Shown here piece by piece: positions 12,567 through 57,151 of a stretch of 61,607 nucleotides of DNA. Below the pieces are notes generated by a model that searched no databases, was not told where the DNA came from, and saw only the letters and a list, made by a program, of their open reading frames with translations. The stretch covers positions 1 to 61,607 of the forward strand of contig NZ_JVOJ01000037.1 in assembly GCF_001064145.1 (NCBI RefSeq), read 5' to 3'. Position numbers and translations under genes: made by a program. The DNA comes from Sanguibacter keddieii (GTDB lineage Bacteria > Actinomycetota > Actinomycetes > Actinomycetales > Actinomycetaceae). The first letter of the stretch is position 1. Every line of letters starts with the position of its first letter.

Positions 12567-12574
12567 AGCGGCCC

Positions 12575-12997
12575 TCAGCGCATCGCGTCGTCGATTTCGT
12601 CCGGCGGCAGCGCCAGAATGTGGCTGATGCGTTCGATCAACACCCTGCGCGTCATCACAGCGACCTCCTCCGGGGCGCACCGCAGCGTGATCGGCAGGCG
12701 ATAGACGACGATACGATCGTGCAGACCGCGACGCCGATCCGCCGGGAAAATGCGCGCGACGACGACGTTGTGAGACTCCCAGGGAGCAGGATTTGACGGG
12801 GGAACATCCTCGACCGCAAACTCGATCGTGGCCACCTGCGGCCATCGTCGAATGAGCTCTGTGACGAGCTCAGCGACCATCAGATCAAAGTCCTCACGCC
12901 GCGTCCTCCACGCCGGAGTCCCCGGGAAAAACAGGGGACCGCGCGGACCGCGACCGTGACGGTCGCGACTCGAGACATGGCGGCGCGTTGGAAACAC
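12575..12997 (-). CDS. Zincin-like metallopeptidase-family protein lacking HExxH
   Basis: About 140 residues from a GTG at 12997. It matches the actinobacterial branch of the Zincin_1/DUF1025 family: RDRHGRGPRGPL at the start, WPQVATIEFAVEDVPPSNPAPWE in the centre and DRIVVYRLPI later. Where zinc-binding family members carry HExxH, this protein reads MTRRVLIERISHIL, so the metal site is missing and peptidase activity is unlikely. It is divergent from the DUF3499 gene with about 70 bases between the start codons, and convergent with DUF5719. The start is uncertain because no clear ribosome binding site is present. Confidence 0.75.
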   Translation of the reverse strand: MFPTRRHVSSRDRHGRGPRGPLFFPGTPAWRTRREDFDLMVAELVTELIRRWPQVATIEFAVEDVPPSNPAPWESHNVVVARIFPADRRRGLHDRIVVYRLPITLRCAPEEVAVMTRRVLIERISHILALPPDEIDDAMR

Positions 12998-13066
12998 CCC
13001 CTCAGGGTAGGCGTATGGCGCGCCGAAGCGGGCGATACGGGCACAGAGTGTCGTACTCTTAGGGGC

Positions 13067-13519
13067 GTGATTGCCCAACGCCACTGCTCCAAGCCCGGCT
13101 GCTCCACGGTCGCCGTCGCCACCCTGACCTACGACTATCGCGACTCGACGGTCGTTGTCGGTCCTCTCGCGACTGTCGCCGACCCTAATTCTTACGACCT
13201 GTGCGACGAACACGCGCATAACCTCACCGCGCCGCTCGGCTGGCAGGTCGTCCGTCTGGCAACCACCTTCGAACCTGCTCCGCCCTCGGGGGATGACCTC
13301 GCGGCGCTCGTCGACGCCGTGCGCAGGGTCGCCCAGGAGGCGCAGACAGCCCCGGCGCCGCCTCAGGAGACCCGCAAGCCGACCACCGGGCCGTTCGGGC
13401 CCGCACGTTCCGTGGGGATCCCCGACACGTCGAGCCCGCTCGACCCGTCGAGCCCCTACGCGCGACGCCGCGCCCAGTTCACCGTCGTTGACGGCACGGA
13501 CACCGAGGACAACGACTAG
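13067..13519 (+). CDS. DUF3499 family protein
   Basis: 150 residues from a GTG at 13067 preceded by AGGGG. The N-terminus RHCSKPGCSTVAVATLTYDY, then PLATVADPNSYDLCDEH and LGWQVVRL, is diagnostic of DUF3499, a small actinobacterial family with a probable metal-binding site made by CSKPGC and the later CDEH. The C-terminal third is Pro/Ala-rich and looks disordered. It lies beside the zincin-like gene, as in Streptomyces and Mycobacterium. Its function is unknown. Confidence 0.85.
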   Translation: MIAQRHCSKPGCSTVAVATLTYDYRDSTVVVGPLATVADPNSYDLCDEHAHNLTAPLGWQVVRLATTFEPAPPSGDDLAALVDAVRRVAQEAQTAPAPPQETRKPTTGPFGPARSVGIPDTSSPLDPSSPYARRRAQFTVVDGTDTEDND

Positions 13520-13522
13520 GGG

Positions 13523-14353
13523 TTACAGGCCGAAACGAGCCTGCGTCGCCTCGTGGAAACGAGCCTGGCCGCGTGAGCGGCGCTCAGCCTCCCGCCCCCA
13601 GTCGCGATCCCTGCGGGCCACCAGCACGGCCGCGATCACAATCTCCGGGTGGAGACCAGCGGGTAGGGGCGTCTGCACGCGACGCGAGAGGCGCTGCGCG
13701 AGTGAGACGGCGACCTGTGCTCGAACGTCCGTCTTCAACGACCGATTCGACTGCAGGAAGGCACGAGCCTCCGCGACGAGGGCATCGTCGAGGGGGAGGA
13801 TCGTCGCGGTGCGCGCCCAGTCTTCGAGGCCCGGTGGCAGAACGAGGGGCGGATAGAACACGGATGCGCCCTGCGAGCACACCATCGTCCCGGCCGCCAG
13901 ATCACCCAGGCGCTTGCCTTTCGAGCTCATGATCTCCGCGAGTGCCGCCAGGCCGCCAAACGTCGCCCAGTTCTCCAGAATGCCCGTCGAGACGCGAACT
14001 GCGCTGTGGCGGGCGGTGATTGCACCGCCGTCGTCGCGTACGACCCGCAGGTTAAACGCCCACTTCCCGAAGGAACGCCCACGTGTTGTGATCTCGACCA
14101 CCAGCGGCAGGAAGAAAAACGTCATCGAGGTGAAGCCGATCACGATCACGCGCTGCATCGACGCGGACGGTGAGGCGAACCTGGTGGCCAAGAGAAACAG
14201 CACGACGAAGCACAGGAAGTACGTCATCGCATCCATGGCGGCGGCGGCGAAGCGTTCCGGAGGCGAGGCCGGCGTCACGTCCAGGGTGACTGCCTCGCCC
14301 GTGCGCACAAAGTCGTCTTGAATGGCGCTCGATTGACTGCGTTGCGTGCTCAT
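13523..14353 (-). CDS. RDD-family membrane protein
   Basis: 276 residues from ATG 14353 (another ATG at 14362 would add three). The RDD domain has three hydrophobic segments in the first half (about 40-60, 70-90 and 130-150) and the family motifs PERFAAAAMDAM, RGRSFGKWAFNLRVV and KGKRLGDLAAGTMV. The C-terminal 110 residues are soluble and rich in Arg. RDD proteins are sometimes linked to ion exchange, but no activity can be assigned. Its start is 18 bases from the divergent start of the SpoIIM-like gene, so the two probably share a promoter region. Confidence 0.88.
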   Translation of the reverse strand: MSTQRSQSSAIQDDFVRTGEAVTLDVTPASPPERFAAAAMDAMTYFLCFVVLFLLATRFASPSASMQRVIVIGFTSMTFFFLPLVVEITTRGRSFGKWAFNLRVVRDDGGAITARHSAVRVSTGILENWATFGGLAALAEIMSSKGKRLGDLAAGTMVCSQGASVFYPPLVLPPGLEDWARTATILPLDDALVAEARAFLQSNRSLKTDVRAQVAVSLAQRLSRRVQTPLPAGLHPEIVIAAVLVARRDRDWGREAERRSRGQARFHEATQARFGL

Positions 14354-24983: not shown

Positions 24984-25730
24984 GTGGTGGGCGGGAGTAG
25001 AGTCCGGGGCCTGACACGAGGGCTGATCGGCGCGATCCTGCCCGTGCAATGCGCCGGCTGCCGCGCCTGGGACGAGGTGCTGTGCCCGTCGTGCCGCTCC
25101 CTGGCCACCAGCCCCGCGCACGTGGCCTCGATTGACGGTGCGCGAGGCCCCCTTCCCCTGGTGGCGATAGGGGACTACGACGGGTCACTGCGCCGAATTG
25201 TCCTTGCTGCCAAGCACTCCGCGCGCACGGACGTCACTGATTTTCTCGACGAGGCCGGGGCCCGCCTCGGCACCGCGCTGGGTGGGGTGCTGGGCGTGGC
25301 GGGGTCGCCCGCCGCCGCTGTGGGTGTCCCGATGGGGAGGGCAGCGTCGACCGGGAGTGCGGTGGATGTGTGGGTGGTGCCCGCGCCCTCGTCGTGGAAG
25401 AGGCACCTGCGGGGCAGGCAGGTGGCGCTGCCGCTGGCGCGCGCTGTTGCCCGGGCGCTGGCTGCGGGCGCGCGGCCGGGTGTGCGCGTCCGGGTGGTGG
25501 ACGCGGTGCGGCTGCGGATCGGCGCGACCTCGCAGTCGGGTAAGGCTGGGGCGCAGCGCACGGTGGGGCGCATGGGGTCGATGCGTGCGCTCGTGGTCCC
25601 TCCGCCTGGTGTTCTCGTGGTGGCGGTGGATGACGTGGTGACGACGGGGGCGACGGTTCGGGAAATGGAGCGTGTGCTGGGTGGGCTCGATGCGGTAGCG
25701 ACTCTGTGCCGACCCGGACTTATCTCATGA
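24984..25730 (+). CDS. ComF-family phosphoribosyltransferase-like protein
   Basis: About 248 residues from GTG 24984 (GTG 24987 is also possible), six bases after lpqB, with GGGGTAAGAG upstream. The N-terminus carries a probable zinc site, CAGC and CPSC. The C-terminal PRTase fold has the PRPP-binding loop VVAVDDVVTTGATV. ComF proteins aid DNA uptake in competent bacteria, but most actinobacterial members, in this same place after lpqB, have no proven role. The DUF5719-like Ala/Gly-rich insertion near residues 95-125 is unusual but probably just linker. Confidence 0.85.
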   Translation: MVGGSRVRGLTRGLIGAILPVQCAGCRAWDEVLCPSCRSLATSPAHVASIDGARGPLPLVAIGDYDGSLRRIVLAAKHSARTDVTDFLDEAGARLGTALGGVLGVAGSPAAAVGVPMGRAASTGSAVDVWVVPAPSSWKRHLRGRQVALPLARAVARALAAGARPGVRVRVVDAVRLRIGATSQSGKAGAQRTVGRMGSMRALVVPPPGVLVVAVDDVVTTGATVREMERVLGGLDAVATLCRPGLIS

Positions 25731-43082: not shown

Positions 43083-43715
43083 ATGGATACGACAACCCCC
43101 TCACCGACGCTCCGGGCGCCCGAGCTCGCCCCGGCCTCGTCCGCCACGGATGGTGCCGCGCTCGAGGCACGCTTCATGGACGAAGCAATGCCCCTCATGA
43201 ATCAACTCTTCGGCGCGGCGCTGGGCATGACCCGCAACCGAGCCGACGCGGAGGACCTGGTTCAGGAGACCTACCTCAAGGCCTACCAAAAGTTCCACCA
43301 GTACAAGCCCGGCACCAACATCAAGGCCTGGCTCTACCGGATCCTCACCAACACCTACATCACCAGCTACCGCAAGGCGCAGCGCTCGCCCAAGCGCGCC
43401 TCCAGCGACACCGTCGAGGACTGGCAGCTCGCCGACGCAGCCTCCCACTCGGAGGTCGGCCTCAAATCCGCGGAAGTCGAGGCCCTCGAAGCGCTGCCCT
43501 CCTCGCAGCTGCGCGAGGCCCTCGATTCGCTCTCGGAGGAACATCGGATGGTTGTCCTCATGGCTGACGTTGAGGGAATGAGCTACAAGGAAATCGCCGA
43601 AGAACTAGGAGTTCCCATGGGGACCGTCATGAGCCGACTGAACCGGGCGCGCAAGAACCTGCGCTCCGCGCTGGCCGACGTCGCCGCGGAATATGGGATC
43701 GGAGGAGCCAAGTGA
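43083..43715 (+). CDS. sigH: ECF sigma factor of the SigH/SigR group
   Basis: 210 residues. Region 2 (about 30-105) has [36 protein letters not shown], the hallmark of SigH/SigR/RpoE. Region 4 (150-205) has [29 protein letters not shown]. It is coupled by GTGA to a zinc anti-sigma gene. Members respond to thiol oxidation and heat, inducing thioredoxin, mycothiol and protease genes. A matching promoter upstream suggests autoregulation. Confidence 0.93.
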
Positions 43716-44900: not shown

Positions 44901-45006
44901 GTATCTGGATAGGAACCACGCATCCGGATAGGAACGGCGCATCTGGATAGGTTATTAAGGTATCCGGATGTTCGTAACCTATCCGGATGTTCGTTACCTG
45001 TCCGCG
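44901..45006. repeat. Iterated 19-bp repeat with palindromic tail, copy 2
   Basis: Two 19-bp units (44901, 44920) followed by the same 68-bp tail (44939-45006). The tail's last 13 bases overlap the 3' end of the minus-strand AbiEi/DUF559-like gene. Same orientation as the other copies. Confidence 0.9.
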
Positions 45007-46076
45007 TGTTTGCGTCCCATGCGCGGGGTTCGTGAGTAGAAGCGCCGCAACGGTCCATCGCAACGTTGTGTCGGTAGTTTCCACAGGAAACGGCAGTCGG
45101 GAGCAGGATTGATCGGACCTAGGACTCGGCTCAACCTGATCCGCAGCTGTTCCCAGTCGTTGTAGTCTGGCCAACTCACTCGGATGACCTGCCACCCGGC
45201 ATCTCGAAGGTTCTGATCGCGCAACACCCATTCGCGCTTGGCTTGTTCGAGCTCGACGCGACTTTCCCCGAGTTTTGCAACCCCATCAAATTCGATGATG
45301 AGGTGCAAGTCTTCAATCAGGATGTCGATGTAGTAGTGGTGGCCGCGTACACCAATATGCGCCTGCGTCTTAACTGAGAAGGGACAGATGGACCGTATCA
45401 GCCATAGAAGTGCTGCTTCGGCGGGATTGGCACAGCCCGGATCGATAGTCTTGAGGATCGCGTGAGCGCGTCGGTAGCCGCGCACGTGGCCAGCCCGATC
45501 AAGTCGAGCGAGCAGTTCAGCTCGTATCTCCTCGGCTCTCCGGCGGCACTCATCCTGATGAAACATCGAGAACTGGCTCCATACGTTGAGTGCCATACAT
45601 CCGAGGACGAAGGACTCTAACGGCTCATCATGAAGCGCGCTTCTCACGAGCGCATCGTAGGGGTGTTCTACGACCAAACCGTCGATCCTGTTACGTTCTT
45701 CCGAAAGAGGTGGAAACTCAGAGCATGACACCGATGTCGCTGGAACCGTCGTGGAGCCGACGTGGCACGAAGGGAGAGAAGAAGTGCATCTTCGGTTGTC
45801 CCGGTAGATGGTAACGGGAGGGTTTTGGGACCAGCCGTGAATCCCCAACAGTCGTAAGCAGCTCTGTCCGACAAAGATGGACGAGTGCTTGTGGGAGGCA
45901 TCGACGGCATACATGCGTGCGCGAGCGACGGCCTCCCACACGTCCCAGGGGGTGGAATTTATGGAATCGAGGGGTAGCACTGCACAGATGCCGCGCATGA
46001 TGCGGACCAGCGTAGATGTTGGTTGTTCACGAGGTGAGTCTGCTGGAGGGGTGATGATGATGGAAGCCTGCGTCAT
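44994..46076 (-). CDS. AbiEi-like/DUF559 (Vsr-type nuclease fold) protein
   Basis: 360 residues. The N-terminal half resembles the antitoxin-type AbiEi arrangement of actinobacteria (SHKHSSIFVGQSCLRLLGIHGW, then PVTIYRDNRR). The C-terminal 120 residues carry a DUF559/Vsr-like fold: YYIDILIEDLHLIIEFDGVAKL, then LEQAKREWVLRDQNLRDAGWQVIRVSW. The Asp-Glu-Lys pattern fits a PD-(D/E)XK nuclease. The ATG has no good ribosome binding site. Base composition is visibly richer in A+T than the neighbours, a sign of transfer. Iterated repeats flank both ends, and the last codons lie within copy 2. Probably a defence or accessory gene; target unknown. Confidence 0.78.
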   Translation of the reverse strand: MTQASIIITPPADSPREQPTSTLVRIMRGICAVLPLDSINSTPWDVWEAVARARMYAVDASHKHSSIFVGQSCLRLLGIHGWSQNPPVTIYRDNRRCTSSLPSCHVGSTTVPATSVSCSEFPPLSEERNRIDGLVVEHPYDALVRSALHDEPLESFVLGCMALNVWSQFSMFHQDECRRRAEEIRAELLARLDRAGHVRGYRRAHAILKTIDPGCANPAEAALLWLIRSICPFSVKTQAHIGVRGHHYYIDILIEDLHLIIEFDGVAKLGESRVELEQAKREWVLRDQNLRDAGWQVIRVSWPDYNDWEQLRIRLSRVLGPINPAPDCRFLWKLPTQRCDGPLRRFYSRTPRMGRKHADR

Positions 46077-46566: not shown

Positions 46567-47451
46567 ATGTCCCTCCAGATGCGCGTTGTTCACTTCTGTA
46601 TGGGGCTTGTGCCTCCGTTGCTGCACAGCGAGGCAGCGACTGAGCAGATGGCGCTCCACGCCCCGCAGCCCGCCCCGATGCCTGCACGCATGCGAGGACG
46701 TTTCACGGCGACGTGCGACAAAGGCATAACCCGCGTGTTCCCGAAGCTGGGCCTCCGCTCGGGCGGTGTACTCATCTATCTGCATGGTGGAGCGTATGCG
46801 TACCCGATGGTCGCTGGTCAGTGGGGTATCGTCGAGGGCCTCATCGACCGCACTGGGCTGCCCGTCATCATCCCTGACTACCCGATTGCTCCCGCGCACA
46901 CTGCGGCCGAAGCCTTTGACGTCGTCCAGCCCATCATCGACGAGGCACAGGCCGAGTTCGGTCGCGTCATCATCTTCGGCGACTCGGCGGGTGGCGGCCT
47001 GGCGCTATCCCTCGCCATGCAGCGACGCAACGCGGACAAACGTCAGGTGGACGGCCTCGTCCTGTACGCGCCGTGGGTGGACGTCACCATGACGAACCCG
47101 GCGATTGAGGACGTGCAGGGGCGCGATAAGATCCTGCGAGTGCCCGGGCTGGCGTGGGCGGGCCGCGTGTGGGCGGGCGACCTGGACCCGGCCGACTGGC
47201 GCGTCAGCCCCCTGTACGGTGACCCGGCGGGCCTGCCGCCGATACGCATTTTCCAGGGGGACGCGGACATCGTCGGCCCCGACGTGATCGAGTTCGCGCG
47301 CAAGGCCGCTCGCGCTGGCGTGGACGTGCGCCTGCGCGTGGAGCCGGATGGCTTCCACGTGTATGTCCTGGGCGTTCCCACCATTCCCGAGGCTGCGGCC
47401 GCCCTCGACCGCAGCGCGCGCTTCATCTCGGGGATCCTCACCCAGGCGTAG
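46567..47451 (+). CDS. Alpha/beta-hydrolase, HSL-type esterase
   Basis: 294 residues from ATG 46567, with AGAGG upstream; an ORF start at 46459 would add 36 residues that look non-native. Hormone-sensitive-lipase family motifs: oxyanion HGGAY from His73, nucleophile Ser140 in GDSAGGG, acid in GDADIVGPD and His in DGFHVY. No signal peptide, so it should be cytoplasmic and act on short-chain esters. It follows repeat copy 3 and is convergent with the membrane-protein array. Substrate unknown. Confidence 0.88.
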   Translation: MSLQMRVVHFCMGLVPPLLHSEAATEQMALHAPQPAPMPARMRGRFTATCDKGITRVFPKLGLRSGGVLIYLHGGAYAYPMVAGQWGIVEGLIDRTGLPVIIPDYPIAPAHTAAEAFDVVQPIIDEAQAEFGRVIIFGDSAGGGLALSLAMQRRNADKRQVDGLVLYAPWVDVTMTNPAIEDVQGRDKILRVPGLAWAGRVWAGDLDPADWRVSPLYGDPAGLPPIRIFQGDADIVGPDVIEFARKAARAGVDVRLRVEPDGFHVYVLGVPTIPEAAAALDRSARFISGILTQA

Positions 47452-47542: not shown

Positions 47543-48248
47543 CTAATCGACCCGCGCGTCCACCAGGGTTTTACTGTGCACGTACATGTCGACGGTCAGC
47601 GGCGTCTGGTCGGGGTGGAGGACACAGCCTTCGTAGAGCGGATGAATGATGCCCGACAGCTGGGAAATGTCCTGCTCAGAGGTGGCGATGGTGAAGGTGT
47701 GCTGGGTGCCATCATTGAAGCGCATGACGAAGTGGTTGTTGTAGCTGGTGCCTCCGGTGAACCACTGTGATCGTGTGACGGTGTCTTGGGCGTAGCTACA
47801 GGAGGTGACCGCGCGTGGTTGGGGTCCTTGAGCCAGGTCGATCACCGCGGGCGTGAGGAAGTACAAGACTGGTGCGGCAATGACGAGGACGCCGCATGCC
47901 ATCGAGGCGAGGTTGTCCAGCTGCTTGCGTACAGCTCGCCGATCGCCGGAGCGTTTCGCGGCGCGCAGGTCTTGCACGGAGGCGAGGAGCGTGGCGACGG
48001 CACCGATGACGACAAGGAGCCCCAGGCAACACAGGATGATGGTGCCGATGAGTTTGCTCTTCCCATACGAGCCCATGTTGCGCATGACGACGATGATCGT
48101 GATGGTCAACGCCGGGGGGGACGAGGAGGAGCAGGAATAGGGAACGCCCTGTGTGTCGGCCCTGCTTGGTGTCGGCGGGCATGGGGACTCGAGGCTGGGG
48201 CGGAGTATCAGGAACTGGAGGCAGGTGAGGGGTACTGGGAAAACTCAT
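47543..48248 (-). pseudogene. Frameshifted sixth member of the Cys-pair membrane-protein array
   Basis: Two overlapping frames make one gene. From ATG 48248 the protein has a Pro-rich start and the beginning of a helix (GRSLFLLLLVPP). The frame is then lost at seven consecutive G (48114-48120, plus strand) and continues one base out in the frame ending at 47543 (LTITIIVVMRNMG, more helices, QGPQPRAVTSC and PLYEGC). Removing one G gives a continuous protein of about 234 residues, close to its paralogues (220-289). The rest of the gene is intact. It may be phase variation, a decayed gene or a sequencing error. Confidence 0.8.
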
Positions 48249-48288
48249 GGGAATCGTGTCCTGTGTGTGGAGGTCGTGGGGCCTGGTG

Positions 48289-48975
48289 CTAGCCGAGGTG
48301 GGCCTCGATAATCCGCCACGTGTGGGGCATGACCTGTAGCGTCATGGGTGTCTGGCCGGGATGGGTGACGCAGGCGTCGTAGAGGGTGTCGTAGACCGCG
48401 AGGGAGCTGGCGGGTTCGGAGTCCTGCGGTTGCAGGCTGATGTCTAGGACATGGGTGGAGCCGTCTGCGAGCTGCATGGTGATCTCGTAGACCTGGTACA
48501 TGGTGGTTGTGCGCGATCCTCGTCGGCCGCTGCGCCATTCTCGGTCGGCAACGCTACTCGTGCAGCTGGTGACGGTCACGGGTTTCGGCCCGCTTGCCAG
48601 GTCTTGGACGAGTGGGATGATGCGCACGGTGCTCAGTATCCCGAAAAAGATGGCGATGGCGACTCGCCCGGCGGCTTTCCAGCGGCGTCGGCGGGGGATC
48701 GCCTTGTCGACGCCGCGGTCCTGTGCCTCGCGGGCGTCGCGCAGCATCACGGGAATCGCCAGCGGGATCGTCAGGCAGGTGAGGAGGATGCTGAGGTTCA
48801 TGCCGATGCCCGTCCACATGCTGAGCGATCCGTATAGCGCGCCGGTCTTCAGTGCGATCGGGAAGAGGATGAGCGGGGCGAACGTGAGACCGCGGATGAC
48901 GTAGTGGTGGTCGATGAGGTCCCTGTAGTCCTGCCGCGATGGCGGGAAGGAGGGCTCATGCGGGGGCGTGCTCAT
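48289..48975 (-). CDS. Cys-pair membrane protein, array member
   Basis: 228 residues, with AGGAGAGAACC before the ATG. Three hydrophobic segments (about 28-46, 53-77 and 103-125) are separated by a basic loop (IPRRRRWK), which predicts an inside loop and an exported C-terminal domain. That domain begins SGPKPVTVTSC, has LADGSTHVLDISL and ends YDACVTHPGQTPMTLQVMPHTWRIIEAHLG-like in family style. The two cysteines (in TSC and YDAC) are conserved in every member and could form a disulfide. No known family recognised. Confidence 0.8.
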   Translation of the reverse strand: MSTPPHEPSFPPSRQDYRDLIDHHYVIRGLTFAPLILFPIALKTGALYGSLSMWTGIGMNLSILLTCLTIPLAIPVMLRDAREAQDRGVDKAIPRRRRWKAAGRVAIAIFFGILSTVRIIPLVQDLASGPKPVTVTSCTSSVADREWRSGRRGSRTTTMYQVYEITMQLADGSTHVLDISLQPQDSEPASSLAVYDTLYDACVTHPGQTPMTLQVMPHTWRIIEAHLG

Positions 48976-48994
48976 GGTTCTCTCCTGTGCTATG

Positions 48995-49696
48995 TCAGTC
49001 GATGGAAGCCTTGACGATGGACCACGTGTGGGGGTAGACCTCCACGGTCATGGAGGCGGATCCGGAGCGTCGAGCGCAGGCCTCGTAGAGGACGCCCGTG
49101 AGACCGCCGCGCGAGGCGATGTCGTCGGCATGATCTGTCTCGATGACCGTGAGGCGCTTGGTGCCGTCGGCGAGGGTCATCGTGAAGTAGTTGTCCCATC
49201 CGTTGTCGGGCGCACGATCAGCGCGCGTCTTCGGGTTTGATCGTGGCATCTGCTGGAAGCTGCACGAGGTGACAGTGACGGTGGTGGTGCCCTCCTTCAG
49301 GTCGCGGAAGGCGGGAAGGCCGCGGCTGATCGACTGGAAACCCACGAACAACGCGGTCACGCACAGGACGACGATGGCGAAGGAGCGCTGGTTGTACCTC
49401 TCAATATCGACGTCGCGCTTGGCCCGCCAAACGCCGAGGTACGCGAACGCGCACGCGATGAGGAGACCCGCGACGAGGACGAGCCCAACGCCGCAGGCCT
49501 GCACTTTCCACACGACGCGATCACGGCCGAAATCTGTGTGATCTCCGATGAACCAGAAGATGGCGATGGCAGCAATGACCAGAGCCATGAAAATGACCCC
49601 GATGGTGGTGGCGATCTTCTTGAGGACGCTTGCGCCTGTCGAGCCTTGCGCGGGTGAGGACGCCCGACGAGGAGAGGAAGCGGGGTTGTGTGACAT
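48995..49696 (-). CDS. Cys-pair membrane protein, array member
   Basis: 233 residues, with AAAGGG before the ATG. Helices lie near 25-48, 60-85 and 105-125. The exported domain starts EGTTTVTVTSC, has a variable middle with ADGTKRLTVIETD and the closing motif YEACARRSGSASMTVEVYPHTW. Its helix 2 region (FGRDRVVWKVQACGVGLVL) is clearly related to the next member upstream (FGTERIVWTLIKCAVALVF), which shows recent duplication. It has no enzyme motif. Probably co-transcribed with its neighbours, which are only 19 and 60 bases away. Confidence 0.8.
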   Translation of the reverse strand: MSHNPASSPRRASSPAQGSTGASVLKKIATTIGVIFMALVIAAIAIFWFIGDHTDFGRDRVVWKVQACGVGLVLVAGLLIACAFAYLGVWRAKRDVDIERYNQRSFAIVVLCVTALFVGFQSISRGLPAFRDLKEGTTTVTVTSCSFQQMPRSNPKTRADRAPDNGWDNYFTMTLADGTKRLTVIETDHADDIASRGGLTGVLYEACARRSGSASMTVEVYPHTWSIVKASID

Positions 49697-49756
49697 GGGT
49701 TCCCTTTCGGGTTGCAGAGGCTGGGACGAGGCCGGGGCGCGCGTGCGGCCGAGCGA

Positions 49757-50626
49757 TCAGTTGTTGATCCTCGCGCTCGCGACGACCCTCGAATGCGTGT
49801 AGTAACCGATGGTCATGGTCGCGTTGCCGGAGCGTAGGGCGCAGGCCTCGTAGAGGACGGCAGTCACGTCCCTTTGCCTCGCAATCTCATCCTTGCTGTC
49901 TGTCTCGACTGTCTGCGTGTGGGTCGAGCCATCCTCAAACGTCATGATGAACTGATTCTCATACACGGTACTGGATCCGCCGCGGTAGCGTGACCGACTC
50001 GTCTTGTGCTGCTCAAATCTGCACGATGTCACCGTGACAGTGTGTGGGCCGTCGGCAACGTCGAGGATGGCGGGAACGCCGTTCGACAGGGCGTACAAGC
50101 AAAATCCGAGGCCAAAGCAGGCTACCAGGACCTGGCCGCGCTTCCTTGTTTGTACCAGTTCCTCGTCGCCCTGGGCGCTCGCAATGCGGAAATTGCGCCG
50201 TGCAGCAGCAAACCAGGGAATCATGGCGAGGGCGAAGACGAGTGCGACGGCGCACTTGATGAGGGTCCAGACGATCCGTTCCGTGCCAAAATTGAACATT
50301 TCGCCGAAGAAATAAAGGACCATGCCGACGAGGAGTCCCACGAGCGTGAGGAGGATCCACCACCCCGTGTGCTTCTTTGGCGCTGTGTCCTCGCCGGAAG
50401 GATCGGTGGGGAAAGGAACACTCTGAGAGGATGCATCAGCGTCCGACGATGCGGCATATGTGTCCCCGTATGGGGATCCCTGGTATCCCCAGCCCTGGTA
50501 CGACAGCGGCGGCACGGAAGGCTGAGCGTTGCCCGCTTGCGGCTGTGGCACCTGCGGCTGGTTGGCGGGTTGACTGCCGGCAGTGGACGGATCGTAAGGG
50601 GACGGATAAGGGTTCTGATTACTCAT
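49757..50626 (-). CDS. Cys-pair membrane protein with Pro/Gln-rich tail, array member
   Basis: 289 residues, the longest member. A cytoplasmic Pro/Gln/Ser-rich N-terminus of about 85 residues (SNQNPYPSPYDP...) precedes three helices (about 90-110, 120-140 and 170-190). The exported domain has DGPHTVTVTSC, the motif FEDGSTHTQTVETD and YEACALRSGNATMTIGYYTHS. The basic loop between helices 2 and 3 (AARRNFRIAS; TRKRG) supports an inside loop. The N-terminal tail resembles that of the next upstream member. Confidence 0.8.
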   Translation of the reverse strand: MSNQNPYPSPYDPSTAGSQPANQPQVPQPQAGNAQPSVPPLSYQGWGYQGSPYGDTYAASSDADASSQSVPFPTDPSGEDTAPKKHTGWWILLTLVGLLVGMVLYFFGEMFNFGTERIVWTLIKCAVALVFALAMIPWFAAARRNFRIASAQGDEELVQTRKRGQVLVACFGLGFCLYALSNGVPAILDVADGPHTVTVTSCRFEQHKTSRSRYRGGSSTVYENQFIMTFEDGSTHTQTVETDSKDEIARQRDVTAVLYEACALRSGNATMTIGYYTHSRVVASARINN

Positions 50627-50681
50627 GGTGGACCTGAGGGGAAGGGTGGGAACGAGGCCGGGGCGAGATTGATCGTGTGTG

Positions 50682-51485
50682 TCAGTTCAGGCGGGCGTTG
50701 ACGATGATCCAGCTGTGGCGATAGACCTCAAGCGTCAGAGATGAGGGCCCGTTCTTTTCAGCACATGCTGTGTAGAGGGTGCTGTAGACGCCGGCTGCGT
50801 CGTAGGCGCTGCCCAAGCGAGTCGTGTGCTTCGAGCCGTCGGTGAGGGTGAGATCGAACCTGTAGGACGTAGAGGTGCCTCCCCGTCGTGAGCGCATTCT
50901 GAGCTCACTGTAGCTGCACGACTTGACGGTGACGGTCTGTGTTCCTTCGATCGTGTCCGCAACCGACTGCACGGAACCAATGACCGCCATCGTTCCGACG
51001 ATGAGGACGGGGATGGAGAGAACCACGAGCCAGACGATTGGCTTACGCATGTTCGTCCTGTCGCCAGCGCGCTTCGCTCGGTTCATACGGAGAGCCGTCA
51101 CGACAATGATGACCGCACAGATGAGCATACTGATGGTGCCCACGGCGCTTGCGATGCTTTGCCACGTGAGTTTGATGTCGCCCACGTCGTAGAAATTGCT
51201 CAGCACAAAATAGGTAACGACACCGCTGAACGTGAGGAACTTCAGAACGTTGAGCACCGTCGCGTAGTTCGTGTTCATGACCGGACGGCCCATGTTAGTG
51301 CCTCCATGCGGCGCAGCGGGCCCCTGACCCGGGAAGGGCTGCTGGGGGTACATGCCGCCCATGTATTGGCCGGGTGCCGGTTGCGTCGGGGCTTGGCCCA
51401 TGTATTGGCCGGGTGCCGGCTGGGTCGGGGCTTGGCCCGGGAAGGGGTGCTGCTGAGGATAACCGTAGGGGTATTGGTTGCTCAT
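50682..51485 (-). CDS. Cys-pair membrane protein with 13-residue tail repeats, array member
   Basis: 267 residues. The Pro/Gln-rich N-terminus contains two exact or near-exact copies of GQAPTQPAPGQYM, encoded by a 39-bp tandem repeat. Three helices follow (about 80-98, 108-130 and 148-170), with a basic loop (RMNRAKRAGDRTNMRK). The exported domain has EGTQTVTVKSC, LTDGSKHTTRLGS and YTACAEKNGPSSLTLEVYRHSW. The start ATG has only a weak GAG upstream. Same operon and family as its neighbours. Confidence 0.8.
   Translation of the reverse strand: MSNQYPYGYPQQHPFPGQAPTQPAPGQYMGQAPTQPAPGQYMGGMYPQQPFPGQGPAAPHGGTNMGRPVMNTNYATVLNVLKFLTFSGVVTYFVLSNFYDVGDIKLTWQSIASAVGTISMLICAVIIVVTALRMNRAKRAGDRTNMRKPIVWLVVLSIPVLIVGTMAVIGSVQSVADTIEGTQTVTVKSCSYSELRMRSRRGGTSTSYRFDLTLTDGSKHTTRLGSAYDAAGVYSTLYTACAEKNGPSSLTLEVYRHSWIIVNARLN
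51361..51438. repeat. 39-bp tandem repeat inside an array gene
   Basis: Two head-to-tail 39-bp copies (51361-51399 and 51400-51438) keep frame and encode 13 residues each. Slippage would change the tail length in steps of 13 residues. Confidence 0.85.
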
Positions 51486-51557
51486 GGTGTCTCGCTGGTC
51501 AGTGGGGTTGTGTCCTCGTGCAGAGGCTAGCCATATGTGAGGAGTGTACCGACAATA

Positions 51558-51833
51558 CTATGGGTGCGCGGACACCTGTCGAGGCCGAGGTTCGGGTGCA
51601 TCCGCAGCGCCGCGTGCGTGCACCCCTGGGTTACCTGAACTATAGGTGTTGATGAGTCGGCAGGGGTATTCGTTCATGGACAGGTGCTCGCTAGACGAGG
51701 CGCGCGACACGGCCGCGATGACGATGCCGACAACGCCGACCGCGAGTGAGACGACGGCGTAGAGCTTTCCGGAGGACGCGTTCCCCTTGGCCTGCGCTCG
51801 GCACCCACGCCTGCGCAGCAGGCGCTCGATCAT
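51558..51833 (-). CDS. Possible small single-helix membrane protein
   Basis: A 91-residue frame with one hydrophobic segment (LYAVVSLAVGVVGIVIAAVS) in a 372-base gap between two array genes. There is no ribosome binding site, and the tail is Pro/Arg-rich and not conserved-looking. It may be a gene remnant, a decayed array member or chance. The rest of the gap (51486-51557 and 51834-51857) shows nothing. Confidence 0.3.
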   Translation of the reverse strand: MIERLLRRRGCRAQAKGNASSGKLYAVVSLAVGVVGIVIAAVSRASSSEHLSMNEYPCRLINTYSSGNPGVHARGAADAPEPRPRQVSAHP

Positions 51834-51857
51834 CGACGAGGCCGGGGCGCGTTCGCG

Positions 51858-52520
51858 TCACGCCTCACGGATAGCCTTCATGATCCCAGTGCGCGGGTAG
51901 TAGTCGACGACGAGAGAGGTCGTGAAAGGGCGGACGACACATGCCTGATAGACAGCGTAGTAAGGGCTTGTTGGTTTCGTGAACTCGTCTTGCGTGTGCG
52001 TCGTGATGTTGAAGTGACGCTGCTTTCCGTTGTCAAAATGGAGGGTAAAAACGTTGCGGTAGTAGGTGCTGCCGCGACGCCCGTGTTCGGTGAACGTCTG
52101 GAAGTTCTCACAGCTCGTGACGGCCCGCGTCTGGGGGCCTTGGCGGGCGTCACTGGATAGCTCACCGAAGGCGCCAGCGCCCATGACGGTGCACGCGGTC
52201 GCGACCAACGCGATCATAGCAATGCCGAAAAATGTCTTCATGGCGGGGCCTGCGTCGCCAGGTTGATCCAGTTGTGCGCGCATCGTGCGCACGAGCATCG
52301 GAAGGAGCGACAAGAGACAGATGCCGAAGACAACGGCCGCGCCAGAGCCGATGAGTGAACAGACCAGCTGACGCACACCGAAGTTCCCGGCTAGCAAAAA
52401 CGCGCCGAGCATGATGACCGCGGATCCGGTGAGCGCGCAGGCGCATATGGTCATGCCGAGCTGTTGCCGAGCGTTGCCCGGACGTATCTCAGGGGAGAAA
52501 CGCGAACGACGTGGATACAT
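51858..52520 (-). CDS. Cys-pair membrane protein, first member of the array
   Basis: 220 residues from ATG 52520, set by AGGAGGAA eight bases upstream; the TTG six bases earlier is too close to it. Three helices lie near 20-42, 48-72 and 90-112, with a basic inside loop (VRTMRAQ). The exported domain has QGPQTRAVTSC, FDNGKQRHFNITTHTQDEF and YQACVVRPFTTSLVVDYYPR. Helix 3 to Cys is most like the frameshifted member (QGPQPRAVTSC). It begins 18 bases after the SGNH-like gene stop, so the array may be read from the sucA side. Confidence 0.8.
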   Translation of the reverse strand: MYPRRSRFSPEIRPGNARQQLGMTICACALTGSAVIMLGAFLLAGNFGVRQLVCSLIGSGAAVVFGICLLSLLPMLVRTMRAQLDQPGDAGPAMKTFFGIAMIALVATACTVMGAGAFGELSSDARQGPQTRAVTSCENFQTFTEHGRRGSTYYRNVFTLHFDNGKQRHFNITTHTQDEFTKPTSPYYAVYQACVVRPFTTSLVVDYYPRTGIMKAIREA

Positions 52521-52538: not shown

Positions 52539-53141
52539 TTAGACGTCCGCCGGGGTCGCTCCCGTCCACTCGTACCAGCCCTGGTGCTGGACGATCCACG
52601 CCATGAGGGCGTAGCCGGCCTGGCCGGGCAGGGTCTGACCGTCCCCGCCGCGCGCGAGGGAGGCGGCCATGTCCTCGAACCACTGGTCGTGCGCGACGAG
52701 CGGCGTGTAGCAGTCGACGAAGGGGATGCCTCGGCGCGCGCACACTTCGGAGCACGAGGAGGACAGGGCCTTCAGCGAACCGGAGTCCACGCCTGCGAGC
52801 GGCGGGGGACCGACCACGAAGCTGGGGATGCCCAGCGCGGTCGCTCGGTCGGTGATGTTGGCCAGGTTCAGGCGCGAGCGGGCCGTCGAGATGCCTGCTG
52901 CGACGTCGCCCGGCCCCACGCCGATGACGAGGCCGTGTGGCTCGCGTTCGGCCAGGCGCGGCAGGACCTCGGCCTCCCAGCGCGCGGCCATCTGCTTCGT
53001 CGTCTCGGAGGGCACGGCCAGGGTCAGGAACGTGGCGGGCAGATCGAAGGTGGAGTGCGCGTTGACGCGGCCGACCCAGCCCAGGCCGCGGGGGTCGCCG
53101 ACGCCCGCGACGAGCTCGTCTCCGATGAAGCAGATCCGCAT
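52539..53141 (-). CDS. SGNH/GDSL-fold protein lacking catalytic residues
   Basis: 200 residues, with GGAAAGGA before the ATG. The fold fits SGNH hydrolases: block I reads CFIGDELVAGVGD, then VIGVGPGDVAAG and VVGPPPL for blocks II and III. The nucleophile position in GDS is Glu (GDE), and in block V the expected DxxHP is DGQTLPGQ with no His. Hydrolysis by the usual mechanism is therefore unlikely. Similar GDE proteins seem to accompany sucA in related genera. The gene is 51 bases downstream of sucA and 18 before the membrane-protein array. Confidence 0.75.
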   Translation of the reverse strand: MRICFIGDELVAGVGDPRGLGWVGRVNAHSTFDLPATFLTLAVPSETTKQMAARWEAEVLPRLAEREPHGLVIGVGPGDVAAGISTARSRLNLANITDRATALGIPSFVVGPPPLAGVDSGSLKALSSSCSEVCARRGIPFVDCYTPLVAHDQWFEDMAASLARGGDGQTLPGQAGYALMAWIVQHQGWYEWTGATPADV

Positions 53142-53192: not shown

Positions 53193-56100
53193 TTAGCCTT
53201 CGAAGGCCTGCGCAATAAGGGTAGCTGCTTGCTCCTTGTGAAGCGAGGCACGTCCCGCGGCGGTCGTGGCGGACTCGGGACGAGAGACCACGCGGACCGT
53301 GCGTCCCAGAGACGGGAACAGGTTGAGCGCCAGGTGCGGCCACGCGCCCTGGTTGCGAGGCTCGTCCTGCGCCCACGTCACCGACGCGTTCGGGTACTGG
53401 GCCAGGGTCTCGGCCACCTCGGCCTCGGGCAGCGGGTAGAGCTGCTCCAGGCGAATGATCGCCGTCGACGTGTCGGTGCGGTGCTCGCGCTCCTTGACGA
53501 GGTCGTAGTACAGGCGGCCCGAGCACAGCAGGACGCGCGTCACCGACGCCGGATCGGTGATGGTGTGATCGCCGATGACGGGCAGGAAGGCACCCGAGGT
53601 GAACTCGTCGAGGCGTGAGGACGCGGCCGACAGGCGCAGCAGCTGCTTGGGCGTGAACGCGATGAGTGGCTTGCGCGGGCGCTTGTAGGCCTGCGTGCGC
53701 AGCATGTGGAAGTAGTTCGCCGGCGTCGAGGGCTGGACGATCCACATGTTGTCCTGGGCGGCCAGCTGCAGGTAGCGCTCGATGCGCGCGCTCGAGTGGT
53801 CGGGCCCCTGGCCCTCGTAGCCGTGGGGGAGCAGCATGACGAGCGAGGAACGCTGGCCCCACTTCTGCTCGGCCGAGCACACGAACTCGTCGATGACGGT
53901 TTGCGCGCCGTTCGCGAAGTCGCCGAACTGAGCCTCCCAGATCGTCAGGGTTTCGGGGCTCTCCAGCGAGTAGCCGTAGTCGAAGGCCAGCACGCCGTAC
54001 TCGCTCAGCGGTGAGTTCCACACATCGAAGCGTGCCTGGTCTTCGGTGAGGAAGCGCAGCGGCGTGAACTCGCGGCCGTCGTTCGCGTCGTGCAGGATCG
54101 CGTGACGCTGGACGAAGGTCGCGCGGCCCACGTCCTCGCCGGACAGGCGCACGCCGGTGCCCTCCATGAGGAGCGTGCCGAAGGCCAGGAGCTCCGCGAA
54201 ACCCCAGTCGATCGGCTTGTTGCCCAGCGCCATCTCGAGGCGGCGCTCGCACAGCTGACGCAGCTTCGGGTGAGGTTCGAAGCCCTCCGGGAAGTGCGTG
54301 TGCGCGTGGCCGATGCGGCGCAGCTGCTCGGCGGGGGCAGCCGACGTCCAGCCGATCATCATGCCGATGCCGGGCATCTGGGACTCCGGCATGGTCCATT
54401 CCTCGTCGGGGGACTCCCCGGCCTCGCCCACGCCGACGGTGAGCGCCGGGTCGTGCGTGCGGCTGCCCGGGTTAATCTCGGACACCGAGGAGGCACCGCC
54501 CGCGCGGGTCTCCTCGAGGATGCGCCCGAGCTCCGCCTCGTACTGGGCGATCGACTGGCGGGCCTCGTCCTCGGTGAGCTGGCCGCGACCCACGAGGCCG
54601 CGGATGTACACGGCGCGCGTGGAGGGGATGCGGTCGATGAGGGAGTACATGACCGGCTGGGTCATCGACGGGTCGTCGCCCTCGTTGTGACCGCGGCGGC
54701 GGTAGCACACCATGTCGATGATGACGTCCTTGTGGAAGGCGTTGCGGTACTCGAAAGCCAGGTGCGCGCAGCGGATGACGGCCTCGGGGTCGTCCGCGTT
54801 CACGTGCAGGATCGGGACCTGCAGGCCCTTGGCCAGGTCGGTCGCGTAGCCGGTGGAGCGGCCCTGCGTCGGGCCGGTCGTGAAGCCGATCTGGTTGTTG
54901 ACGATGACGTGGATCGTGCCGCCGGTCTTGTAGCCCTCCAGCTGGGAGAGGTTGAAGGTCTCCTGGACGACGCCCTGGCCGATGAAGGCCGCGTCGCCGT
55001 GGATGAGGATCGGGATGATCGGCAGGTCAGGGTCTCCCAGGTGCTCCTGCTTGGCGCGCACGATGCCCTCCAGGACGCCGTCGGCGGCCTCCAGGTGCGA
55101 GGGATTGGCGCCCATGTAGACCTTGGTGGCCAGGCCATCGTCGAGGGAGTACACGCCCCACGTACCCAGGTGGTACTTGACGTCGCCCGATCCCTGGACC
55201 GAGTTGGGCATGTAGTTGCCTTCGAACTCGTCGAAGATCTGCGCGTAGGACTTGCCTGCGATGTTGGCCAGCACGTTGAGGCGGCCACGGTGCGCCATGC
55301 CGATGGCGACCTCGTGGATGCCGGCGCGCGCCGAGTCGGCCAGGATGTGGTCGAGCAGCGGGATCAGGGACTCGCCGCCCTCGAGGGAGAAGCGCTTCTG
55401 GCCCATGAACTTCGTCTGGAGGAACTCCTCGAAGGCCTCGGCGCGGATGAGGGTGCCCAGGATGTGGCGCTGCGCGTCGGGGGAGGGGGCCTCGTACGGG
55501 CGCTCGATGCGCTGCTGGACCCACGCGCGCTGCTCGGGATCCTGGATGTGCATGTACTCGATGCCGACCGTGCGCGTGTAGGTGTCGTGCAGGCGCGTGA
55601 GGATGTCGCGCAGCAGCATCTGGTCGGAGCCGCCAAAACCGCCGGTGGGGAAGGGGCGATCCAGGTCCCACACGCTCAGGCCGTAGGAGGAAATATCGAG
55701 GTCGGGGTGGCGACGCACGCGGTAGGCTAGCGGGTCGGTGTCGGCAGCGAGGTGGCCGCGCGAACGGTACGCGTGGATGAGCTCCGCGATGCGCGCGGGC
55801 TTGCCCTTTTCGTGGTTCGGGTCGTAGTCGTAGTCCGCTTCCCACGCGTAGGGGCGCGCGGGCACGTGCAGGGACGTGAAGACGCGCTCGTAGAAGCCGT
55901 CGCGTCCCGACAGTTTCGCGTCGACCAGACCCAGGAGGCGGCCCGACGCCGCGCCCTGGATGATGCGGTGGTCGTAGGTGGAGGAGAAGAACATCGTCTT
56001 GCCGATGCCGAGGGCGGCCAGGCGCTTGGGGGAGACGCCCCGGAATTCCGCCGGGTAGTCGGTGGCGCCCACGCCGATGATGAGGCCCTGGCCGACCATG

Positions 56101-57101
56101 AGGCGCGGCACGGAGGTGGTGGTACCGAGCGTGCCCGGGTTGGTCAGGGTGACGGACGCGCCCTGGAAGTCGGCGGTGGTCAGCGTCGCCGTGCGGGCGC
56201 GCGCCACCAGGTCCTGGTAGGCGTCGACGAACTCGGCGAAGGTCAGCGTGTCTGCGTCGTGGATGACGGGGACCTTCAGCGAGTGATTGCCCTGCGCGTC
56301 GGCCACGTCGATGGCCAGGCCGAAGCCGATGTGCGCGAGCTGCTCGACGGCGGGCTTGCCGCCCTCGATCGTGTAGCGCACGTTGAGGTCGGGCATCTCG
56401 CACAGCGCCTCCACCAGGGCGTAGCCGATGAGGTGCGTGAAGGAGACCTTGCCGCCGACGGTGCGCGCCAGGTGCGCGTTGATGAGGGCGCGGTTTTCGA
56501 TGAGGAGCTTGGCCGGGATCTGGCGCTGGGAGGTGGCCGTGGGGATGGAGAGCGAGGCCTCCATGTGCTTGGCGGTCGCGCGCGCCGCGGACTTGAGGAT
56601 GTACAGCTCGTCGTGCGAGGGGGTGCCCTGGGAGAGCGTGAAGGCCGCGCGCCCGTGCTGTTGGCGCGTGTAGGGGCTGGTGGCCTCGGCGACGGCGGCG
56701 GGCGGGGCGGGCGGCAGGTCGGAACGCGTCACGGAGATGACGGGAGCGTGTTCGGTGGCGGCCGCCTCGGGCCCCTCATCTTCGATGTCGAGGGTCGGCG
56801 GGGTGACCGTCACGGGGGCGACGTGGTCAACTGGGGGTGCGACATTGACCGACGAGGCCGGGGCTGGCTGGGGCGTTGAGGGAGCGCCCTCGGGGATGTT
56901 GGGGCGCTTGGCGCGCAGCTGCGGGGGAGCGGACTCCGTGGAGAAATAGGCACGCCAGGAGGGATCCAAGAGCTGCGGATCGCGCTCGTAGAGGTCTCGC
57001 ATCTTCGCGATGTACCACTGCGGATCGGGCTGGGAAGCGGTGGGAGTGGGCACGTATTCCTCCGTAAGTGTCGCGCCGCGCGCATGGGCAAAATCCTGCA
57101 C
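53193..57101 (-). CDS. kgd: Multifunctional 2-oxoglutarate metabolism enzyme (Kgd/SucA)
   Basis: 1302 residues from GTG 57101, which lies seven bases after GGAGG; ATG 57107 is only one base from it. The N-terminus (QWYIAKMRDLYERDPQLLDPSWRAYF) is E1-type. An E2-like acyltransferase domain (about 120-400) has the active-site motif YDHRIIQGAASG. The thiamine-diphosphate E1 domain follows, with GDAAFIGQGV and NNQIGFTT. No lipoyl domain is present, as in mycobacterial Kgd. It decarboxylates 2-oxoglutarate for the TCA cycle or forms 2-hydroxy-3-oxoadipate. The linker contains PAPASS, site of a recurrent 13-mer. Confidence 0.95.
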   Translation of the reverse strand: MQDFAHARGATLTEEYVPTPTASQPDPQWYIAKMRDLYERDPQLLDPSWRAYFSTESAPPQLRAKRPNIPEGAPSTPQPAPASSVNVAPPVDHVAPVTVTPPTLDIEDEGPEAAATEHAPVISVTRSDLPPAPPAAVAEATSPYTRQQHGRAAFTLSQGTPSHDELYILKSAARATAKHMEASLSIPTATSQRQIPAKLLIENRALINAHLARTVGGKVSFTHLIGYALVEALCEMPDLNVRYTIEGGKPAVEQLAHIGFGLAIDVADAQGNHSLKVPVIHDADTLTFAEFVDAYQDLVARARTATLTTADFQGASVTLTNPGTLGTTTSVPRLMVGQGLIIGVGATDYPAEFRGVSPKRLAALGIGKTMFFSSTYDHRIIQGAASGRLLGLVDAKLSGRDGFYERVFTSLHVPARPYAWEADYDYDPNHEKGKPARIAELIHAYRSRGHLAADTDPLAYRVRRHPDLDISSYGLSVWDLDRPFPTGGFGGSDQMLLRDILTRLHDTYTRTVGIEYMHIQDPEQRAWVQQRIERPYEAPSPDAQRHILGTLIRAEAFEEFLQTKFMGQKRFSLEGGESLIPLLDHILADSARAGIHEVAIGMAHRGRLNVLANIAGKSYAQIFDEFEGNYMPNSVQGSGDVKYHLGTWGVYSLDDGLATKVYMGANPSHLEAADGVLEGIVRAKQEHLGDPDLPIIPILIHGDAAFIGQGVVQETFNLSQLEGYKTGGTIHVIVNNQIGFTTGPTQGRSTGYATDLAKGLQVPILHVNADDPEAVIRCAHLAFEYRNAFHKDVIIDMVCYRRRGHNEGDDPSMTQPVMYSLIDRIPSTRAVYIRGLVGRGQLTEDEARQSIAQYEAELGRILEETRAGGASSVSEINPGSRTHDPALTVGVGEAGESPDEEWTMPESQMPGIGMMIGWTSAAPAEQLRRIGHAHTHFPEGFEPHPKLRQLCERRLEMALGNKPIDWGFAELLAFGTLLMEGTGVRLSGEDVGRATFVQRHAILHDANDGREFTPLRFLTEDQARFDVWNSPLSEYGVLAFDYGYSLESPETLTIWEAQFGDFANGAQTVIDEFVCSAEQKWGQRSSLVMLLPHGYEGQGPDHSSARIERYLQLAAQDNMWIVQPSTPANYFHMLRTQAYKRPRKPLIAFTPKQLLRLSAASSRLDEFTSGAFLPVIGDHTITDPASVTRVLLCSGRLYYDLVKEREHRTDTSTAIIRLEQLYPLPEAEVAETLAQYPNASVTWAQDEPRNQGAWPHLALNLFPSLGRTVRVVSRPESATTAAGRASLHKEQAATLIAQAFEG

Positions 57102-57151
57102 GGCCATACCTCCGCAATTCTACCGCCGCGTGATCGTCTTCACGAAACCTG

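Follow-up and report, generated by a model that had tools for sequence, protein, structure and literature searches.

A variable repertoire of tandem membrane proteins with a cysteine-paired C-terminal domain occupies one genomic site in an actinobacterial genus

In contig NZ_JVOJ01000037.1 of Sanguibacter keddieii (assembly GCF_001064145.1; 61,607 nt, hereafter the window), six homologous, co-directional minus-strand genes, A to F, span positions 47543-52520 and represent the local version of a repertoire: arrays of two to seven such genes are found in 9 of 35 genomes of the genus, all at this one site, and the chief variable is which array members a species keeps. Tentatively, and at well below even confidence, we read the products as membrane-anchored outer binding proteins in a birth-and-death repertoire, for which immunity or exclusion would be the best-fitting role by analogy. 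In each protein, a cytoplasmic tail at the N-terminus would lead into three membrane helices, followed outside the membrane by a small C-terminal domain with one disulfide; species would keep differing subsets of 12-14 old subfamilies, losing copies through deletion and gaining or replacing some through exchange with relatives; and at the cell surface each member would neutralise or exclude one attacker out of a large, variable set, candidates being bacteriocins or secreted membrane toxins made by competitors, phages, and the Saccharibacteria living on this species.

The six genes are homologous beyond chance, since tblastn with D in its own genome recovered the five other array genes at E values of 3.1e-5 to 5.1e-33 (21-33% identity to D) and nothing else at E <= 0.001. 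The original prediction, made from the letters of the window alone, had described six paralogous minus-strand genes, one of them frameshifted, and this description holds: the frame of F is broken at a run of seven C, while its orthologues in G001 and G020 are uninterrupted, and the break may be either a sequencing slip or a real mutation. Local duplication, proposed at the same time, is likewise supported. There is also a relic of a seventh copy, which is 60% identical to the subfamily G copy of G020 (E 1e-11). The relic lies in the 372-nt spacer between A and B; the gap between A and the preceding GDSL gene is 18 nt, and the remaining spacers measure 55, 60, 19 and 40 nt. A scan for promoters and terminators stayed at the level of shuffled sequence (2 versus 0.9, s.d. 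0.9, and 2 versus 3.0, respectively). The array probably extends the transcription unit formed by the GDSL gene and the gene that we take to be kgd from its Pfam domains, with which it would be co-transcribed.

In a hydropathy analysis of 14 proteins, A to D and the G020 orthologue of F showed three helices each, as predicted; only two passed the threshold in E, in the open frame of F, and in subfamily J of another genome. Counting from the start codons chosen, a tail of some 24 to 89 residues precedes helix 1 in these five three-helix proteins, in line with the varied tails noted originally, and about 100 residues follow helix 3. The predicted basic loop between helices 2 and 3 was also recovered, with 3-10 K/R in the stretch preceding the last helix of the six window proteins, and by the positive-inside rule, which orients membrane proteins, the C-terminal domain would lie outside. 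Positions invariant in the six-way alignment are both cysteines, D and G after helix 3, V-x-S-C, G of DG and Y of YxxC. Of the motifs first listed for the outer domain, the terminal YxHTW is loose (A ends in YYPRTG and E in MPHTW). The cysteine pair, claimed to be invariant, is present in 69 of 69 outer domains fully covered by the profile (10 of the 79 matches were partial and were set aside) and in 57 of 57 rows of the outer-domain alignment A5, these rows having been selected by likeness to a profile that itself contains the cysteines. One protein of G118 (L092) has, by eye, neither cysteine, as expected if the two pair, and a single disulfide may staple the outer domain.

This domain, of about 100 residues, is probably beta-rich. 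Residue propensities weakly suggest the order strand-strand-strand-helix-strand-strand, with parts of the helix scored as strand; strand 1 would then end with the first cysteine, and the second would lie close to where the helix ends. The stretch from the first cysteine to the strand that follows is highly variable. Apart from the cysteine pair, conservation is limited to a few G, D and Y residues with no catalytic pattern, and because no enzyme residue pattern is conserved, the domain would most likely bind something.

Across the array loci the flanking genes are the same, with kgd-GDSL on one side and the alpha/beta hydrolase on the other (in G023 they are split over two contigs), and the GDSL gene is present in 35/35 genomes of the genus. 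The array maps (Table 1) are subsets of nearly one linear order, the single departure, which is doubtful, being a relic of 33 residues in G023 (K2, E 0.005). In G018 no array member was detectable in the ~0.9 kb at the site; its GDSL gene (L140:3589-4186) matches in two overlapping pieces and appears frame-broken. The 42 core sequences fall into 12-14 paralogue clades, depending on splitting, with long inner and mostly short outer branches; long branches in this tree were flagged, and its deep order is unresolved. Among 17 named loci, five carry array genes (L118 at one end only), ten have neither a match nor a related hydrolase in the stretch examined, and two, L122 and L124, hold remnants together with the hydrolase. 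L124 (positions 10001-14329, Actinomyces marseillensis) contains the GDSL-relic-hydrolase unit twice in tandem, with one GDSL and one hydrolase copy incomplete. The record of L118 is named Xylanimonas cellulosilytica 352_XCEL, but its locus is of the Schaalia odontolytica-group type, with a GDSL gene 99% identical, and the label is therefore probably wrong. Beyond the hydrolase, a 360-aa protein without a Pfam match (window 44994-46076) is 60-95% identical where found in array genomes, so that this region is variable too.

The original prediction held that outside the cysteine pair the proteins are diverging fast, and this part did not stand. Identity between the window genes and their orthologues is mostly 81-94% (55-60% for the more distant G021), which, together with the long inner and mostly short outer branches, indicates at the sequence level that the paralogues are old and not freshly diverging. 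For window array genes with orthologues dN/dS is 0.14-0.63, compared with 0.01-0.06 for GDSL, 0.07-0.10 for kgd and 0.17-0.23 for the hydrolase (the comparison of kgd with L039 was left out, its dN of 3.03 being artefactual, probably because the matched stretch has a frame problem). Outer-domain medians are 0.16-0.56 across the six genes, with single pairs reaching 0.97 (D); the kgd_C set, with coordinates out of frame, was left out of that comparison. Judged by these ratios, the array genes are under relaxed purifying selection, and rapid residue divergence as the driver of the pattern is ruled out by the clade tree and dN/dS.

There are also signs that some members were gained or swapped between species. 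Between the window and G001, dS is 0.129 for A, 0.176 for D, 0.138 for E, 0.183 for F and 0.338 for C, that is, below the flanks (hydrolase 0.364, kgd 0.468, GDSL 0.845), which speaks for exchange; B in G013 similarly shows dS of 0.10 versus 0.27 for GDSL. In G010 and G019, array remnants adjoin a hydrolase 91-92% identical to that of the window, whereas GDSL is 70-71% identical, pointing to transfer.

Divergent relatives also occur away from the site. On contig C20 of the own genome (L048:4538-6060), a second tandem pair lies between NlpC/P60 and D-Ala-D-Ala carboxypeptidase genes, and four matches in G021 lie at apparently the same place, judging by ORF sizes. Divergent copies in G010, G016, G019 and G022 adjoin large open reading frames (ORFs), which proved to encode ABC transporter proteins where tested (both neighbours in G010 and one in G019, the others being judged by size), and in G055 and G065, both of another genus, copies sit at the purD/purC position (tested in G065, by size in G055). 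With neighbours differing in this way, there is no constant partner gene. At L047:7346-9137, two small proteins, read by eye, with a KKPFY-[TR]-RW start that presumably resembles Ltp-type lipoproteins, lie beside the family members of G031.

Turnover at one site, tolerated loss and import from relatives together resemble orphan immunity arrays, which is why we favour a role in immunity or exclusion. A number of observations weigh against it. Query D found no copy in phage or plasmid records, and in IMG/VR there was no pattern match with C, while four pattern matches with D were unconfirmed by tblastn. No toxin family was detected among the 20 non-array window genes (of ~48) put through Pfam, nor was any toxin seen by eye, with no family search, beside the divergent G031 copies. 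The distant single copies adjoin housekeeping genes (purD/purC, ABC transporter), and a general envelope role fits equally. The dN/dS values show no positive selection in the array genes, and array dS is clearly below that of the flanks only for G001 (and for B in G013), being alike for G020, G026 and G023, and higher in G021 (E 0.68 and F 0.90, versus 0.29 for kgd and 0.36 for GDSL). The protective role is put forward only tentatively because no toxin was found and single copies have housekeeping genes beside them. If it is correct, oral Schaalia, a host of Saccharibacteria, holds a readable record of attackers met, and the subset carried by a strain could predict its resistances. The locus also shows a species group sharing variable genes while the adjoining genes stay core.

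The strongest rival, which we consider rather unlikely, is that the family consists of membrane proteins that are dispensable and under loose selection, such as partners of envelope enzymes, and that their copy number drifts by birth and death without any role in conflict. The dN/dS range, the frequent relics, the one emptied locus (G018) and the copies next to purD/purC, ABC transporter, or NlpC/P60 and D-Ala-D-Ala carboxypeptidase genes would all be in keeping with it; however, the subfamilies are recognisable and in order across several species, their orthologues are still constrained, and import across species is not predicted by drift.

The same repertoire evidence, two to seven genes and subset maps, could also be produced by a surface-variation or receptor family, in which the outer domains are recognised by phages, host antibodies or Saccharibacteria and changes of subset hide the cell. 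The variable stretch after the first cysteine of the outer domain fits such a function, as does the presence among the named array loci of S. odontolytica, reported to be the host species of Nanosynbacter lyticus TM7x (PMC12369343). Yet a 100-residue domain near the membrane may lie buried beneath the thick wall, and the outer-domain medians give no sign of positive selection in any of the six genes, so that we regard surface variation as unlikely. Still less probable, in our estimate, are sensors of envelope stress or of a ligand, with the outer domain sensing and the tail relaying the signal inward: the tails differ greatly in length and composition, and a sigma-70 family factor (ECF-like) is encoded ~4 kb off, at 43083-43715, but its region was matched (by an overlapping query) in array-free loci too, Pfam and NCBIfam searches of the six proteins showed no signalling domain, and subset turnover with relics is unusual among regulators. 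The original prediction had offered sensor, immunity and surface-variation functions side by side; they are inseparable with the present data, and the behaviour of the repertoire agrees less well with a sensor than with surface variation or immunity/exclusion.

As first proposed, no known family was recognised for these proteins, here in the libraries searched. Searches of Pfam and NCBIfam with the six whole proteins gave nothing above curated cut-offs (best E 0.00087 and 0.00036, mostly over the helices), and the 52 rows of alignment A2 gave weak Pfam matches below cut-offs (best E 0.0001, to MFS_1; DUF7937 in 15 of the 52 rows, Yip1 in 5). Profile searches with the outer domain placed it in no described family: the 57 outer domains of A5 had weak best matches in Pfam and PHROGs (E 0.03 and 0.0079), the PHROGs scan being confined to these domains as opposed to whole proteins, and PDB sequences yielded nothing credible with profiles A2 and A5 (E 0.0088 and 0.068). 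PADLOC models matched the six proteins only through PD-T4-6 (E 0.044, over the tail of C), which is not credible as an anti-phage defence match, and a literature search found no publication on this array.

A divergent DUF3592-like domain is highly improbable. DUF3592 comprises membrane proteins with an outer beta domain, a DG turn and a Y-x-P-x-x-P end, and a profile-profile comparison (hhalign) matched the F-T-x-x-x-D-G hairpin at E 0.0068 with a score of 17.3, against 6.0-9.7 for controls (eight column shuffles and one reversal). However, the hhalign probability is 5.6% over 25 aligned columns, the DUF3592 end motif is not reached, and the DUF3592 alignment has 11 rows, each with at most one cysteine, unlike the pair seen here. 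There is no significant profile match, the helix order differs, and PF12158 is absent among the matches listed for the window proteins, for the outer domains, and for the best 25 of 49 families with the A2 rows.

Credible relatives seem to be confined to the own bacterial family, which we take to be Actinomycetaceae from the matching record names Schaalia and Actinomyces. At E <= 0.001, profile A1 detected members in 10 of the 35 genus genomes, each giving 3-8 matches. With profile A2, matches appeared in 44 of 213 family genomes, of which 14 belong to the genus; many of the matches beyond the genus cover helices only, and these were excluded as family members. In samples from the larger groups, 6 of 396 genomes matched at the order level (E <= 1e-6), all of the own family, and at the class level the outer domain alone matched 1 of 394 genomes, its own.

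Three spacers of the window array share a 17-base word, CGCGCCCCGGCCTCGTC (Table 1), which belongs to a genome-wide signal. The 14-mer GCCCCGGCCTCGTC has 184 copies in the own genome (88 and 96 by strand), the reversed control having none, and is the commonest 14-mer in 461 kb, N runs aside; its flanks are uninformative. The 12-base core, CCCCGGCCTCGT, has 77 copies in the 461 kb, compared with a mean of 0.35 and a maximum of 4 for 300 permuted words, and 42 of the 77 lie outside the script-called genes, which cover 84% of the sequence. Five inverted pairs occur within 60 bp, and a variant with A at position 3 has 42 copies. In the set of 213 family genomes, the 35 of the genus divide into 12 with 119-426 copies of the core and 23 with no more than 45; in the 178 genomes of other genera the core has, by reading of the list, at most 18. 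All 10 genomes with family members by profile A1 are among the 12 rich in the word; G010 and G019, with remnants, are not. DNA uptake sequences are short words present on both strands in genome-wide excess, in coding and non-coding DNA, and restricted to a lineage; the GCCCCGGCCTCGTC word shows each of these features and looks like a candidate uptake sequence, while a binding site or a terminator-derived repeat is possible. If it is an uptake signal, it is an unexpected case in Actinobacteria, for which a literature search limited to titles and abstract openings returned no report pointing to such a word. ComEC, present in 33 of the 35 genus genomes, does not discriminate the word-rich ones.

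Within the arrays, the core occurs three times in the window, 3, 4, 1 and 1 times in L036, L040, L041 and L045, and not at all in L037, L038, L039, L043 and L044. As the core is absent from these five arrays, the word is not needed for an array, and its role as an array-specific element is ruled out, the word being genome-wide. Compared by eye with G020, the left junction of the relic is exact: what lies to the left of the spacer word after A is fused to what lies to the right of a 13-base copy of the word inside the start of G (L040, 6023 and 6109), which looks like a deletion between short repeats; a MAFFT alignment puts the junction bases elsewhere. By eye, another deletion, an internal one, comes after this junction. 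It is conceivable, though quite improbable in our view, that the array is a pooled transformable repertoire, in which oral Schaalia share 12-14 immunity or exclusion proteins, reshuffled by uptake of neighbour DNA marked with GCCCCGGCCTCGTC, and the word can also seed deletions between spacers; this would amount to an actinobacterial uptake-sequence system coupled to a defence repertoire.

Table 1. Features at the array site in the window, and order of members in the arrays compared
Feature	Position	Strand	Remarks
Gene A	51858-52520	-	ORF; ATG preceded by AGGAGG; first array member, 3' of GDSL gene
Gene B	50682-51485	-	ORF, tblastn, alignment; long tail rich in P/Q/G/Y
Direct repeat in gene B tail	51357-51434	-	39 nt, two copies, 95% alike
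Gene C	49757-50626	-	ORF, tblastn, alignment
Gene D	48995-49696	-	ORF, tblastn, alignment; outer domain coded by 48998-49303
Gene E	48289-48975	-	ORF, tblastn, alignment
Gene F	47543-48248	-	Frame interrupted within helix 1, at C run 48114-48120; open part, 47543-48109
Seventh-copy relic, subfamily G	51705-51848	-	Recognisable part is helix 2-3 loop region only; ORF listed 51558-51833, 91 aa
GDSL-type lipase/acylhydrolase	52539-53141	-	Fixed upstream flank; Pfam E 9.7e-16
2-oxoglutarate dehydrogenase/decarboxylase, kgd-type	53193-57107	-	Fixed upstream flank; Pfam domains
Alpha/beta hydrolase (Abhydrolase_3)	46567-47451	+	Fixed downstream flank; convergent (tail-to-tail with array)
Word, spacer after A	51835-51851	-	At relic junction
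Word, spacer B-C	50651-50667	-	Two mismatches
Word, spacer C-D	49725-49741	-	Exact
Further word sites	25248-25264 and 43125-43141
Array, G000 (window)			A-(G relic)-B-C-D-E-F
Array, G001			A-G-H-C-D-E-F
Array, G020			A-G-C-K2-D-E-F
Array, G021			(relic)-H-C2-E-F
Array, G013			G-B-(relic)
Array, G026			I-B-(L relic)-K-C-D
Array, G023			I-J-(B tail), contig break, L-(relic)-C-D
Arrays, G005 and G006			I-J-(B tail)-(L relic)-K

Comparison with known immunity arrays shows both likenesses and differences. EsaG is a soluble protein, and TipC is singly anchored. The six proteins had no listed NCBIfam match to either, whether NCBIfam has models of both being unchecked. The EsaG and TipC arrays are reported to consist of tandem paralogues whose copy number shifts by recombination at short shared blocks (PMC9484751); in the array described here, three spacers and one deletion junction likewise contain a shared word, although this word is not array-specific. 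DUF443, the family of TsaI, was unmatched by the six window proteins in Pfam at E up to 10, a limit at which HMMER filters drop most matches above 0.1. The tsaI arrays of S. aureus contain 2-16 non-identical membrane immunity genes at one site, each product with five predicted helices, downstream of the toxin gene tspA (PMC9484751). In our array, the proteins have three helices and an outer domain with a cysteine pair, and it is preceded by the GDSL lipase gene and kgd, with no toxin found. Both systems nevertheless place tandem, non-identical polytopic membrane proteins at a fixed site in variable copy number, and tsaI of S. aureus may be regarded, by analogy, as the nearest published comparison found.

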